From: Henriciella sp. AS95
Lineage (GTDB): Bacteria > Pseudomonadota > Alphaproteobacteria > Caulobacterales > Hyphomonadaceae
Assembly: GCF_038900055.1 (NCBI RefSeq)
Contig: NZ_JBBMQM010000001.1
Span: forward strand, 1,736,001 to 1,800,000
Reading direction: 5' to 3'
Length of the DNA: 64,000 nt
This document shows, piece by piece, positions 58,014-62,996 of this stretch. Position numbers and translations under genes: made by a program. The notes beneath the pieces were generated by a model, which saw only the letters and a list, made by a program, of their open reading frames with translations, had not been told where the DNA came from and searched no databases. The first letter of the stretch is position 1, and each line of letters opens with the position of its first letter.

Positions 58014-58355
58014 CTATTTGCGGCGCAGGGCTGCAAGAAGGACACCCGTGCCAAACGCAATGCCGACGGAGGTCAGCGGATTGGCGCGGACTTTATCTTC
58101 GAGATAGTCCTTGCCTTTGGTGGCTTCGGATTTCGCCTTATCAAGGTATTCCTTGGATTGCTCGACGCCTTTGTCGAGGCTCTTGGCGGATTGGCCCTTG
58201 ATGTACTTGCTGGAATTGCCAGCCAGTGACTTGACGTCGTCGCGCAGCTGGGAAATGTCAGCTTTCAGTGCATCATAGTCGCTTTTGGCGGCTTCAGCAG
58301 CGTGCTTGATATCAGTATTGCCGTTTTTCTTCTGGGAAGTGGTCGTGATAGCCAT
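58014..58355 (-). CDS. ElaB/YqjD/DUF883-like protein
   Basis: 113 residues from ATG 58355 (GGAGA ribosome-binding site). A long charged helix (DYDALKADISQLRDDVKSLA and on to KDYLEDKVRANP) is followed by a C-terminal membrane segment (LTSVGIAFGTGVLLAAL) ending in RRK. E. coli relatives are stationary-phase, inner-membrane, ribosome-binding proteins. Preceded by a perfect EcfG promoter. Confidence 0.8.
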   Translation of the reverse strand: MAITTTSQKKNGNTDIKHAAEAAKSDYDALKADISQLRDDVKSLAGNSSKYIKGQSAKSLDKGVEQSKEYLDKAKSEATKGKDYLEDKVRANPLTSVGIAFGTGVLLAALRRK

Positions 58356-58387
58356 TCTGCTCTCCATTCGTGTAACTTCGCTTAAAC

Positions 58388-58413
58388 AACGGCGGGGTAG
58401 GCCATAGAGTTCC
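58388..58413 (-). promoter_or_regulatory. EcfG-type stress promoter of the DUF883 operon
   Basis: Minus strand GGAAC (58413-58409), 17-bp spacer, CGTT (58391-58388), 33 bp before the ATG. Exact consensus boxes. Confidence 0.8.
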
Positions 58414-58472
58414 GAAAAATCCTGATAAGGGGAATTTAGGAACCTCCGCCGGGGTCGAGCTTTGAAAAGGGG

Positions 58473-59270
58473 ATGAAAGTGTTCCGGAACAAATTTTCCC
58501 AATATGTGCGCCTGTCCGAAGATGCGTGGACGCCATTCGATGATCTGGATCAGCGCTCAGAAACCTTTGAAGCGGGCGAAGATCTCATCGTGGCCGGGCA
58601 GGACGCCAATGAAGTCTTCGTGCTGCAGGCGGGATGGGCGTTGCGATATCGGCTTCTGGAGGATGGTCGTCGGCAGATTGTGAACTTCATGCTGCCTGGC
58701 GACGTCTTTGATCTGCAATCGCTCTCTGATCTTAAGGCTGATCACACAGTGACCGCGATCACCGATTGCGATGTTACCGTCATTCCGTCCCGCCCCTTTG
58801 TGAAGATGCTCCAGGAATCGTCGCACATCGCGGCCGCTTTCTGGTGGTCGGCGGTTCAGGAGGATTCGATCCTGCGAGAACAGATTGTCCGTATCGGTCG
58901 TCGTTCGGCGCGCGAACGGATTGGTCATATGCTGCTTGAGCTTCACCGACGCTATGCGGGCGCCACAGGTGAAGAAACAGACGAATTGGTCATGCCGGTG
59001 ACTCGCGCCGATATCGCCGATGCCTTGGGTTTAACCCCCGTACACGTGTCGCGCACCATGTCGGCCATGCGCCGGTCGGGGCTTATTGAGGAGGAGCGCG
59101 GATCGATCAGACTGCTTGATCGCGAGCGCCTTTCACGTCTGTCGCATTTCGACACCGATTATCTCCATCTCAAGAAGCTGGACCTGCTGAAAAAGGAGAT
59201 GGCGGCGAATGGAAAAGGTGACGCAGCCGGACTAACTCAGATTAATGCGCGCGAGAAAGAAGCGCCGTAG
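58473..59270 (+). CDS. Crp/Fnr-family transcriptional regulator
   Basis: 265 residues. A cNMP-binding-like beta-roll spans about 20-125 without Cys clusters, so not an oxygen-sensing FNR type. The winged helix (about 185-230) has TRADIADALGLTPVHVSRTM as recognition helix. A 40-residue C-terminal tail, Lys/Leu-rich, exceeds the usual length. First gene of a three-gene unit with the sigma-like protein and the small basic protein. Confidence 0.9.
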   Translation: MKVFRNKFSQYVRLSEDAWTPFDDLDQRSETFEAGEDLIVAGQDANEVFVLQAGWALRYRLLEDGRRQIVNFMLPGDVFDLQSLSDLKADHTVTAITDCDVTVIPSRPFVKMLQESSHIAAAFWWSAVQEDSILREQIVRIGRRSARERIGHMLLELHRRYAGATGEETDELVMPVTRADIADALGLTPVHVSRTMSAMRRSGLIEEERGSIRLLDRERLSRLSHFDTDYLHLKKLDLLKKEMAANGKGDAAGLTQINAREKEAP

Positions 59271-59293
59271 AATCGCGAATTTAAGGATTCGTA

Positions 59294-59743
59294 TTGCAGC
59301 TTTCTATTCCACATTCTTCGGAGCGAGAACCGCTCTTGCGTCGCCTCCGTCGGATGGGCCGGATCCTCACTGGGGATCAGAAAGTTGCCGATAGCGTCTT
59401 GGAAGATGCTTTTGTGCGCGCCAGATCCGCCATTCGGGCGCCGGAGGCGTTCATCGCCGCAACCGATATTTTCAAGCTTGGCTTTGACGCGTTCGATGAC
59501 GCTGTTCACCGCAAGGGCGTGGTCGTTTTGCTGAACCGGGCAGGGGCGCGCGACGGCTCGCTCGGTGAGCGCGTCAATCAGCTCAGCTATGTTGAGCGTG
59601 TCGCGATTGCCTTGCTTTTGATTGAAAATATGAGCCCGAAAGTTGCAGCAATCCTGTCGGGGCGTCCCGCTTCCGTGCTGGAAGAGAGCCTTTCGAGTGC
59701 GATCGAAATTCTAAGTGAAACGAACGAGACTAACGGACTATGA
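59294..59743 (+). CDS. free-standing sigma-like (PhyR-type) domain protein
   Basis: 149 residues from TTG 59294 (AAGGA upstream). Region-2-like DSVLEDAFVRAR and region-4-like YVERVAIALLLIENMSPKVA and VLEESLSSAIEIL align in pattern with the N-terminal half of PhyR (LAPIERQAFLLTALEGF...EELISKAHADIE) rather than with a working sigma. Promoter-binding residues of region 2 look degenerate and there is no receiver domain. It overlaps the next gene by 4 bp (ATGA). It could be a sigma mimic, a decayed sigma, or a constitutive anti-sigma antagonist. Confidence 0.6.
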   Translation: MQLSIPHSSEREPLLRRLRRMGRILTGDQKVADSVLEDAFVRARSAIRAPEAFIAATDIFKLGFDAFDDAVHRKGVVVLLNRAGARDGSLGERVNQLSYVERVAIALLLIENMSPKVAAILSGRPASVLEESLSSAIEILSETNETNGL

Positions 59744-59964
59744 GTAAGGACAGCAGTTTGAGAAAAAGGCTCAAATCCAAGCTGAAAGATATCACCGCCG
59801 ACAAGCCAGAAGCTTCACTCATGCAAGCGTTTGAGGCGCTGGGTGGGGAGATGGCGGAGCCAGACGGCATTGATGCGCTTCCGCCAAAAATCAAAGCGCC
59901 GCGCAGACGAAAGGCGGCGAGAGTGACCGATGATAAACCTGATGGCGAACAGAAGTCTGGCTGA
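59740..59964 (+). CDS. small basic protein coupled to the sigma-like protein
   Basis: 74 residues: a Lys-rich N-terminal helix (RKRLKSKLKDITADKPEASL), a short hydrophobic patch (MQAFEALGG), then Pro/Arg/Lys-rich tail. The ATGA overlap indicates coupled translation. The spacing DIT...KP...LMQAF...L weakly echoes DVT...EPVP...FMNLL of NepR in this window; with so few positions this is only a hint. Confidence 0.5.
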   Translation: MSKDSSLRKRLKSKLKDITADKPEASLMQAFEALGGEMAEPDGIDALPPKIKAPRRRKAARVTDDKPDGEQKSG

Positions 59965-59982: not shown

Positions 59983-61209
59983 CTAACTGTCGAATATGCC
60001 TTGGGCGGCAGCGATCGAATTCAGATCCCGCAATGAGTAGAGGTATGCGGCGAGGCGCCAGTCCCCTTCGCATTCTTCGGCGGTCGCCGCCAGCGCATGG
60101 GCTGATGTCAGAAGCCGGTCAGACCACTGAGCTTCATGTTCTTCCGGGGAGACTTTTCGGCCTTTCTGAAAGACGAGCCATTCAAGATAGGATGCGACGA
60201 CGCCTCCTGAATTGAACAAGATGTCTGGCCCGACCGTCACATCGCGGTTCCGCAAGATTTCGTCAGCTGATGACGACACGGCCGCATTGGCGATTTCCAG
60301 AACAAATCTGGCATTCAGCTCGGTCGCATTTCCTTCCGTCACGGCGTCAGAAATCGCTGCCAGACATATGACGTCGGCGGGCACACCAATAATCGCTTCG
60401 GTATCGTCAGTATAATCAAGCGTGCCGTCTGCCTTGGCCTGCAGTACATCGTCTGGATTTAGACCATCCTCGTTTCTAACCATGCCGGTACTGTCCGACA
60501 TCGCGATAATCTTGCATCCAGCCTGCGCGGCTGAGCGAGCAAATTCAGCCCCCGCTTTACCCATGCCCTGAACGGCGATGCGAGACTTTGCCAGATCAAG
60601 ATCCAGATCAGCGGCGAGCTTGTCGAGAATGAAGAAGGCGCCTTTGCCCGTCGCACCCTTGCGCAGGGGAATACCGCCCATGTCTTCCGGTTTTCCAGTG
60701 ACGGCGCCTCGCGCCATACCGTTGGCCTTGTGCCGGATACCGGCAACCATGGCCTCCATGTCATCCGACGTCGTGGCCGTGTCAGGCGCGGCTATGTCGT
60801 TATCCGGTCGCAACACATCCGAAAAAGCCTCACCATAGGTTTCGGCAAGCTGGTAGCGTTCTTTGTCGGTCAGGCCTTCGGCCTCGATGCGGACCGCTCC
60901 CTTCGCGCCGCCGAAGGGCAGATCGAGGAGGGCGCACTTCAATGTCATCAGAAAACCGAGTCGGGACACCTCATCTGAATTCGCACTCGCTGCAAAACGA
61001 ACGCCGCCCTTGGTTGGGCCTTTCAGATTATTGTACCGGCAGCGCCAGGCGCGCGCATATTGGCGTTGCCCATCGTCGCGCCGGATTGTGAGTTCCCGTT
61101 CGATGACTTCATGAGGGAGCGATAGAAGCTTTCGGATGTCTTTCAGGTCAGGATCGGCGTCCACTGCGCGATCTAGTCGTCCGACGGCTTGTTCAAGTAA
61201 TTCTGGCAT
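59983..61209 (-). CDS. glutamate dehydrogenase-family (Glu/Leu/Phe/Val) enzyme
   Basis: 408 residues. GPTKGGVRFA and LMTLKCALLDLPFGGAKGA hold the substrate and catalytic lysines, IAAPDTATTSDDM the usual PDxxT motif, and AVQGMGKAGAEFA the NAD(P) site. Catalyses oxidative deamination of glutamate or a branched amino acid. An exact EcfG promoter is 22 bp upstream, unusual for a metabolic gene. The convergent gene on the plus strand ends 18 bp away. Confidence 0.9.
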   Translation of the reverse strand: MPELLEQAVGRLDRAVDADPDLKDIRKLLSLPHEVIERELTIRRDDGQRQYARAWRCRYNNLKGPTKGGVRFAASANSDEVSRLGFLMTLKCALLDLPFGGAKGAVRIEAEGLTDKERYQLAETYGEAFSDVLRPDNDIAAPDTATTSDDMEAMVAGIRHKANGMARGAVTGKPEDMGGIPLRKGATGKGAFFILDKLAADLDLDLAKSRIAVQGMGKAGAEFARSAAQAGCKIIAMSDSTGMVRNEDGLNPDDVLQAKADGTLDYTDDTEAIIGVPADVICLAAISDAVTEGNATELNARFVLEIANAAVSSSADEILRNRDVTVGPDILFNSGGVVASYLEWLVFQKGRKVSPEEHEAQWSDRLLTSAHALAATAEECEGDWRLAAYLYSLRDLNSIAAAQGIFDS

Positions 61210-61230: not shown

Positions 61231-61255
61231 AACGTCGCAAGAGAAGGCCGGTTCC
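61231..61255 (-). promoter_or_regulatory. EcfG-type stress promoter of the dehydrogenase gene
   Basis: Minus strand GGAAC (61255-61251), 16-bp spacer, CGTT (61234-61231), 22 bp before the ATG and directly after the phyR stop codon. Confidence 0.8.
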
Positions 61256-61260
61256 GTGTC

Positions 61261-62052
61261 TTACTGGGCCGCAACCTTGCTGTCCGAGGGATGGAAGAAC
61301 AGTGCCTGACCAATCGCCGCCTTCACCGTGTTTTCCTGGAACGGTTTCGGGATGAGATAGGTCGGTTCCGGACGCTCGCCTGTAAGCAGGCGCTCGGGGA
61401 ATGCCGTGATAAAGATGATCGGCACGTCCATTTCCTCGAGAATCTCGTGCGCAGCATCAATGCCGGATGAGTTGTCAGCGAGTTGGATATCGCAAAGGAT
61501 CAGACCCGGAGGGTTGGCGCGCGCCATGGCAACGGCTTCCGTGTGAGTCGTTGCATTACCGGTAACATCGTGGCCAAGCTCTTCGACCAGGCTTTCGAGG
61601 TCAGCTGCAATGACCGGCTCATCTTCGATAATCAGAACCTTGGTCGACAGCGTCGCTTCGATGTCTGCGTGCGCCTTGGAAATGAGTTCCTCAACCTGCT
61701 GCACTGTCTTGCCGAGAATGGTTGCAGCTTCCGAAACCTGAAATCCTTCAAGTGCGGTCAGCAGAAACGCCTGACGTTCAATCGGCGCGAGCGCCTGAAG
61801 ACGTTTTTCCGGGGAAGTGCCCGCATCATCAGCGCGCTCCAGGCGCGCGCCGGTCGAGCCCCAGATGACGTGGAAAAAACGATACAGCGCCTGGCGGGGT
61901 GGCAGGTCGCTGCTGACTTGAGTCGGATCTTCTGCGAGCGCGGTGAGCGATGCGCGTATGTAAGAGTCACCGCTCTCCTGACTACCTGTCAAAGCCCTCG
62001 CATAACGGCGCAGATATGGCAGGTGTGGACCAAATTGTTCGACAAGACTCAT
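61261..62052 (-). CDS. phyR: general stress response regulator PhyR
   Basis: 263 residues: an EcfG-like sigma-mimic domain (1-135) fused to a receiver (138-258). Acidic pocket Glu143-Asp144, phosphoacceptor Asp188 (LCDIQLAD), and the conserved Thr/Lys in FITAF and IPKPF. When phosphorylated it binds NepR and frees EcfG. It is divergent from nepR-ecfG across a 160-bp region. Confidence 0.96.
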   Translation of the reverse strand: MSLVEQFGPHLPYLRRYARALTGSQESGDSYIRASLTALAEDPTQVSSDLPPRQALYRFFHVIWGSTGARLERADDAGTSPEKRLQALAPIERQAFLLTALEGFQVSEAATILGKTVQQVEELISKAHADIEATLSTKVLIIEDEPVIAADLESLVEELGHDVTGNATTHTEAVAMARANPPGLILCDIQLADNSSGIDAAHEILEEMDVPIIFITAFPERLLTGERPEPTYLIPKPFQENTVKAAIGQALFFHPSDSKVAAQ

Positions 62053-62393: not shown

Positions 62394-62996
62394 TTGACCC
62401 AGCCGACCATGGATGATCATGCGTTCAAGTCAGAACTTGCTGAACTCATCCCACACCTTCGTGCTTTCGCCCGCAGCCTCTGTGGAAATGCGACTGCTGC
62501 AGACGATCTAGCCCAGGAAGCCATGCTCAAGGCATGGAAAGCCCGCGCCAGCTATCAGGCTGGCACGAATCTGAAAGCCTGGACCTTCACGATTCTGCGC
62601 AACCTTTTCTATTCCGAAAAGCGTCGAAGCTGGCGTCGTCAGCAACTCGACCCGGAAGTTGCAGAAGCAACACTGGTTTCAAACGACGATCCGTCCGCTG
62701 CGATTGAACTCCTGTCCCTCCGCAATGCGTTGGACGAACTGCCTGAAGACCAGCGCGAGGCTCTGATCCTCGTCGGTGCAGGTGGCTTGTCTTATGAGGA
62801 GACCGCAGAAATCTGCGGATGTGCAATCGGCACGATCAAGAGCCGGGTCAGCCGCGCTCGAAAGGCCGTTACTGAAATTCTCGAGGCCAAGATGTCTGGC
62901 CTCGCTGGAGACCATTCGCTTAGTGCCGCGGATGCGTTCGAGGATATTATGAGACAGGCGGACGAGCTATCGCGTGACCTCCCGGCAGACGCCTGA
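62394..62996 (+). CDS. ecfG: general stress ECF sigma factor EcfG
   Basis: 200 residues from TTG 62394, or 195 from ATG 62409; neither has a strong ribosome-binding site. Region 2 (DDLAQEAMLKAWKAR, with FTILRNLFYSEKRR) and region 4 (YEETAEICGCAIGTIKSRVSRAR) are intact. Directs RNA polymerase to GGAAC/CGTT promoters. The following kinase gene probably starts inside its 3' end. Confidence 0.94.
   Translation: MTQPTMDDHAFKSELAELIPHLRAFARSLCGNATAADDLAQEAMLKAWKARASYQAGTNLKAWTFTILRNLFYSEKRRSWRRQQLDPEVAEATLVSNDDPSAAIELLSLRNALDELPEDQREALILVGAGGLSYEETAEICGCAIGTIKSRVSRARKAVTEILEAKMSGLAGDHSLSAADAFEDIMRQADELSRDLPADA

Follow-up and report, generated by a model that had tools for sequence, protein, structure and literature searches.

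The general stress response (GSR) genes phyR, nepR and ecfG of Henriciella sp. AS95 are neighboured by a short gene whose product resembles half of PhyR, and the question raised by this locus is what a sigma-like protein without a receiver domain could do there. In the PhyR switch, NepR is titrated by the sigma-like (SL) domain, whose regions for binding promoter and core are degenerate (PMC8103513; the same switch is described in PMC8999054). According to the available parts of two reports, PhyR usually needs phosphorylation to expose this domain, and binding of NepR to unphosphorylated PhyR is also discussed (PMC8103513, PMC12148442). No receiver-less PhyR protein is described in the titles and abstract openings of the open-licence PMC papers listed by literature searches. 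A natural and conserved SL domain of this type would show sigma mimicry that is run by the amount of protein alone and would provide a natural test of what the PhyR receiver adds. It would also mean that part of the stress circuit may run without phosphorylation and, through its gene unit, it would link the stress switch to a Crp/Fnr regulator.

The window analysed here is a stretch of 64,000 nucleotides from a genome of 3.87 Mb. Between positions 58473 and 59964 it carries, head to tail, the genes for a Crp/Fnr regulator, for a 149-aa protein that we have named SML, and for a 74-aa protein (Table 1). The start codon of SML, read directly from the sequence, is TTG and follows the end of the Crp/Fnr gene after 23 bases, and the ATG of the 74-aa reading frame overlaps the SML stop codon (ATGA). 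From the 74-aa gene it is 1296 bases to the near (3') end of phyR, with a dehydrogenase gene intervening on the opposite strand. The reading frames, their coordinates, the translational coupling and the distance of about 1.3 kb to phyR are as given in the first-pass annotation. No sigma-70-type promoter was found inside the unit, and terminator-like sites in it number 1 versus 1.8 expected. The start of the divergent DUF883-like gene was chosen within a longer ORF (58014-58502).

Table 1. Features of the SML locus, with positions in the 64,000-nucleotide window
Feature	Position	Strand	Evidence or remark
DUF883-like protein, divergent neighbour, synteny conserved	58014..58355	-	DUF883_C E 4.6e-6, just below cut-off, on the longer ORF
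EcfG-promoter-like site GGAAC-N17-CGTT, facing the divergent DUF883 gene	58388..58413	-	Motif match
EcfG-promoter-like site GGAAC-N16-CTTT, imperfect -10	58439..58463	+	Relaxed-form motif match; 34 bases 5' of the Crp/Fnr start
Crp/Fnr-family transcription regulator, at the head of the unit	58473..59270	+	Pfam HTH_Crp_2 and cNMP_binding above cut-off
AAGGA, ribosome-binding-site-like motif	59283..59287	+	Read directly; six bases 5' of the SML TTG
SML, free-standing PhyR-type sigma-like domain (predicted), 149 aa, without receiver	59294..59743	+	NF006623, hhalign, 2lfw profile match; 14 loci
Putative small partner of SML, 74 aa; predicted to have two short helices, with a variable tail	59740..59964	+	ATGA overlap with SML; 7/8 Henriciella SML loci; leave-one-out profile; helices predicted for a relative (joint model)
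Glu/Leu/Phe/Val dehydrogenase, separating the pair from phyR	59983..61209	-	Pfam ELFV_dehydrog; EcfG-like site at 61255(-)
phyR, complete (SL and receiver)	61261..62052	-	NF006623 E 1e-108
nepR, 56 aa	62215..62385	+	PF18557 above cut-off, E 8.9e-16
ecfG-type sigma factor	62394..62996	+	Sigma-70 ECF families

SML had been proposed to be the sigma-mimic half of PhyR lacking the receiver, and this identification stands. Its best match in NCBIfam is the PhyR family NF006623 (E 1.1e-5, residues 15-146, 25.4 bits against a curated cut-off of 240 bits) and its best match in Pfam is PhyR_sigma2 (E 5e-4, residues 13-43, below the curated cut-off). A receiver domain with the phospho-acceptor Asp is absent: the reading frame stops at 149 aa and the match to NF006623 at profile position 138 of 258. 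When a profile of 12 SML sequences was compared with solved structures, the PhyR sigma-like domain 2lfw came out on top (E 7.5e-6; next 0.034). Alignment by hhalign with the PhyR SL domains of the same loci gave a score of 33.0 over 127 columns, and 100 column shuffles scored at most 21.5; the comparison with EcfG scored 31.9, over just 38 columns. With a wider SML set the scores were 42.7 for PhyR (122 columns) versus 36.5 for EcfG (152 columns), placing SML nearer to PhyR by a modest margin. A class-wide profile search gave matches in 109 of 385 genomes, and 29 loci besides our own were retrieved. Beyond the own genome, full PhyR proteins take the first six ranks and an ECF factor the seventh; the matches listed from the 29 loci are each either a full PhyR or an ordinary ECF sigma factor, with no further free-standing SL protein among them. 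The predicted order of helices, three, a loop and four, is broadly that of the published PhyR SL domain (PMC12148442, as far as its available text describes it). That SML is a PhyR-type sigma mimic without a receiver is well supported by these comparisons.

The sigma-like fold, together with the usual layout of a sigma factor and a small co-translated protein, would also fit a working ECF sigma factor with the 74-aa protein as its anti-sigma. We consider this scarcely credible, as the best-matching profiles are those of PhyR and the basic residues are missing where a sigma factor would contact DNA. The sigma4 recognition helix holds 0-3 Lys or Arg in the 14 SML sequences, as it does in 22 PhyR sequences (0-3), against 5 in 22 EcfG sequences. 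In the aligned 2.3/2.4 segment the count is 0-3 in SML against 7 in EcfG (second EcfG and NepR copies were excluded from the residue counts and from the dN/dS estimates below). On the loss of basic residues in these two segments the sigma-factor candidate was rejected, and SML appears to be without the parts needed for acting as one.

A tree was built from 42 rows, comprising the 14 SML, 10 of the 22 local PhyR, 10 of the 22 local EcfG, five distant PhyR and three distant ECF sequences. The SML sequences form a group of their own, apart from PhyR and ECF, with support 96/88 in a tree that carries long-branch warnings and has no sure root. Given this separation from all PhyR, SML is probably an ancient lineage of its own, and its origin by recent truncation of the local phyR was rejected. 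The low similarity to any curated family and the patchy presence within the genus (8 of 29 genomes) might alternatively be read as a functionless remnant of a sigma factor or of PhyR in decay. This is very improbable, since all 14 loci are free of internal stops, their place is conserved, the sequences keep together in the tree, and dN/dS in five pairs amounts to 0.07-0.19, values that are rough because dS (1.8-4.2) is near saturation.

The 14 SML loci are spread over five genera of two families. Within the genus SML is found in the same place in each of the eight genomes, and one genome of another genus has it too. The family as a whole counts 12 among 105 genomes, three of them from a further genus. 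An order-wide search gave 12 of 398 genomes at E 1e-8 (the own included) and adds two of another family. Full PhyR and NepR are above cut-off in all 14 SML genomes, and PhyR, NepR and EcfG lie within the same fetched stretch as SML in nine of the 14 loci, which bears out the location beside the GSR locus. The phyR-nepR-ecfG set was not found in four stretches of 12.9-16 kb around SML (L067, L068, L069, L111), and at a further locus (L019) the contig ends too early to show it. The tie with the Crp/Fnr gene, also claimed in the first-pass annotation, is closer still: in 13 of the 14 loci SML starts 23-96 bases downstream of it on the same strand. Conservation of the full three-gene unit could be upheld in part, as the Crp/Fnr-SML pair is kept in those 13 loci and the small gene accompanies it in seven of the eight Henriciella SML loci and was found in none of the other seven SML loci.

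That SML is found behind the Crp/Fnr gene in 13 loci versus beside the GSR core in nine could be taken to mean that SML and the small protein form a pair that is insulated from both NepR and EcfG and has a different target, such as the co-encoded Crp/Fnr regulator. We hold this to be quite unlikely. In one Henriciella genome (G020) SML has stayed beside phyR, whereas the Crp/Fnr, dehydrogenase and small genes are missing at that place; no tRNA was found at the rearrangement.

The Crp/Fnr gene is present in 29 of the 105 family genomes at E<=1e-45, 18 of which have no SML; 14 of these 18 were fetched, namely all six from Henriciella and eight of the 12 from genus g5. In five of the six Henriciella loci the dehydrogenase match starts 7-76 bases behind the Crp/Fnr gene, and in the sixth it is partial. 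In genus g5 (L076-L083) a small membrane-type ORF with the core RQG stands behind the Crp/Fnr gene in all eight loci read. An ORF similar to the latter comes after SML in L020. In L079 to L082 the main stress locus has a second EcfG-like gene a few kb away, accompanied in L081 and L082 by a NepR-like gene.

The promoters of the unit were searched for the EcfG consensus, which we take to be GGAAC-N16/17-CGTT. This motif points toward the DUF883 gene in all of the 25 loci where such a gene was identified. Before the Crp/Fnr gene, at a distance of 33-34 bases, the exact motif is found in nine of 27 loci and at least the relaxed form in 12 (the window included), leaving 15 without any; mononucleotide shuffles give 0.0011 (exact) and 0.0093 (relaxed) per locus. 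Among the 13 loci with both Crp/Fnr and SML the motif is exact in four and at least relaxed in seven, which again argues against an insulated pair. For the seven Henriciella loci of this type the numbers are three relaxed and none exact. From these counts by locus, SML is likely to be controlled by EcfG in g3 and g8; for the window this is uncertain. The window also has EcfG-type motifs at 61255(-), 56822(-) and 58413(-), in front of the dehydrogenase gene, a 107-aa ORF and the DUF883 gene, respectively, so that the cluster around SML looks like part of the stress regulon.

The 74-aa protein had been described as basic and as having a faint NepR-like spacing, and neither detail was confirmed. 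Its isoelectric point ranges from 4.4 to 11.5 over seven members, so charge is not conserved and basicity is no trait of the family. Homology to NepR did not reach significance in three shuffle tests: against the NepR of the same loci (a profile in which three second NepR copies were kept) 9 of 200 column shuffles were as good; for the core only, 26 of 300 were; and after addition of 14 further NepR copies or paralogues (L161 was excluded for its length) 24 of 300 were. PF18557 gave no match at E<=1 at the place of the small protein. The profile check against PhyR, EcfG and NepR that the first-pass annotation had proposed was therefore positive for SML, which matches PhyR best, and negative for the comparison of the small protein with NepR. 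An odd MAFFT alignment had suggested that the small protein is homologous to the N-terminal helices of SML, but 4 of 100 shuffles were as good, which is no better than for NepR, and the idea was dropped. Among solved structures its profile had no convincing match (best E 0.66).

Judged by sequence conservation the 74-aa gene is nevertheless real and tied to SML in Henriciella. In the seven Henriciella loci that have it the gene overlaps or abuts SML. Used as a single query, the 74-aa sequence matched one of 61 genomes, its own, and none of the 60 others. A leave-one-out profile ranked the omitted copy first in seven of seven loci (E 2.3e-5 to 1.1e-10), and the seven-member profile, run against the 105 family genomes, returned its own members at E 9e-19 or better and 0.007 as the next best. 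The common core is SxLKxxLxxIxxxxPDxxLxxAFxxL, followed by a variable tail. Synonymous sites are saturated in three of four pairs, and dN/dS in the fourth is 0.24. A profile search of the other seven SML loci did not find the small protein (best E 0.12), and because it was found in no more than half of the 14 loci it is not required for SML in general. A role as partner of SML in Henriciella is plausible.

A relative of the window locus (L023) has SML and the small gene in one frame, which allowed both to be modelled as a single chain with AlphaFold2, the stop being read as glycine; the alignment comprised four rows of SML only and one further fused row. Mean pLDDT is 72.0 and pTM 0.65 in the best of the five models (all five span 45.4 to 72.0 in pLDDT), and ten-residue blocks average 76-92 over most SML helices. 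The small part is predicted to form two helices (151-163 and 172-181; blocks 69, 79 and 88). The short linker forces both parts near each other, and the model comes without coordinates or inter-domain error. The SML of the window modelled alone reached a pLDDT of 58.9 and a pTM of 0.45, as a different query and hence no strict control. Foldseek placed the sigma or SL chains of 5uxx, 2lfw and 3t0y first and 4cxf sixth for the joint model, all at E 3e-3 or worse. Of these, 5uxx is an RpoE-NepR, 3t0y and 2lfw are PhyR-NepR and 4cxf is a CnrH-CnrY complex. SML alone already matches 3t0y (first) and 5uxx (second), and the matches of the joint model therefore support the fold, not binding. The joint model is suggestive of an SML-small protein pair. 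The solved complexes 2lfw and 3t0y show, going by their titles, that NepR can be held by an SL domain that lacks a receiver.

We tentatively favour a reading in which SML is a phosphorylation-independent sigma mimic that acts on the stress circuit and, in Henriciella, has the small protein for a ligand. SML would be an old receiver-less lineage of PhyR-type mimics behind a Crp/Fnr regulator, perhaps switched on by EcfG. Since it appears to keep the fold for holding a two-helix anti-sigma protein and to have lost parts for sigma activity, it would titrate NepR or a NepR paralogue by its amount and not by phosphorylation, and in this way prolong the general stress response or set its threshold. 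In Henriciella the co-translated two-helix protein would be a dedicated ligand of SML, bound in the same kind of groove, and may keep SML silent or hand it over, as NepR does on PhyR. A bolder version, which we regard as speculative, is a phosphorylation-free partner switch on top of the alphaproteobacterial general stress response, in which the free amount of SML is set by a co-translated antagonist other than NepR, i.e. an anti-anti-anti-sigma factor. The analysis establishes the sequence family with its conservation, gene order and selection, the loss of sigma residues, and that the small protein is tied to SML; we infer that EcfG drives expression, that SML binds the small protein and NepR, and which way the effect goes.

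That no small protein was found at seven SML loci, and that SML is retained beside phyR in G020 with the Crp/Fnr, small and dehydrogenase genes missing there, would fit direct binding of NepR by SML. SML would then be an always-active anti-anti-sigma factor with positive feedback, and the small protein would have a separate role, e.g. aiding the folding of SML or marking it for proteolysis. We consider this rather unlikely: the small gene is found only together with SML, overlapping or abutting it, and the two helices of its product are fairly confident in the joint model.

Under the favoured reading of SML as a mimic with its own ligand, the pair resembles known systems in part. With the SL domain of PhyR, SML shares the overall helix order, the loss of the DNA-binding residues of sigma factors and, in nine of 14 loci, the adjoining nepR-ecfG genes. 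It differs from PhyR in lacking a receiver, and hence phosphorylation control through one, in its separate group in the tree, and in an identity of only 24-28% between the SML of the window and the local PhyR. The small protein is like NepR and its paralogues in size, in its two short helices and low-confidence tail (as modelled), and in being encoded beside a sigma-like protein, but homology is not significant and it is without a VPDEF-type motif and a PF18557 match. It may be an independently derived ligand of anti-sigma type. Pairs of an ECF sigma factor and a class II anti-sigma domain are also related in form, as 4cxf (CnrH-CnrY) and 5uxx (RpoE-NepR) are among the Foldseek matches of the joint model; unlike the ECF sigma factors of CnrH-CnrY and EcfG-NepR, SML is without the basic residues expected for DNA contact. 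In Rhodobacter sphaeroides a Crp-Fnr gene adjoins phyR on its downstream side and a 68-aa protein with 25% identity to NepR is encoded in the nepR position, whereas a receiver-less sigma-like protein is not mentioned for that locus in the available part of the report (PMC5830050).

In Methylobacterium extorquens PhyR is bound by two of the three NepR homologues, and two-hybrid assays showed binding to an EcfG for none of the three (from the available part of PMC4814048). The genome studied here has a second PhyR (C1:391724-392440) and a second NepR (C1:3251587-3251679), both above the family cut-off. Henriciella genomes with and without SML contain another NepR-like family, whose core is AFxxAMSxGLK (L152, L156-L160), and a tie of this family to SML was rejected on that distribution. 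With a single NepR paralogue as query, no NepR-like match at E 1e-4 was obtained in 15 of the 29 genus genomes, and part of the genus may have a different stress locus or no such locus.

Finally, the C-terminal tail of the EcfG-type protein, AADAFEDIMRQADELS, looks by eye like helix 2 of NepR, VPDEFMNLLEQAD, and the same is seen in its relatives; this is perhaps a self-mimic. A NepR-like extension of EcfG, at the N-terminus, is mentioned in the available part of PMC4814048.
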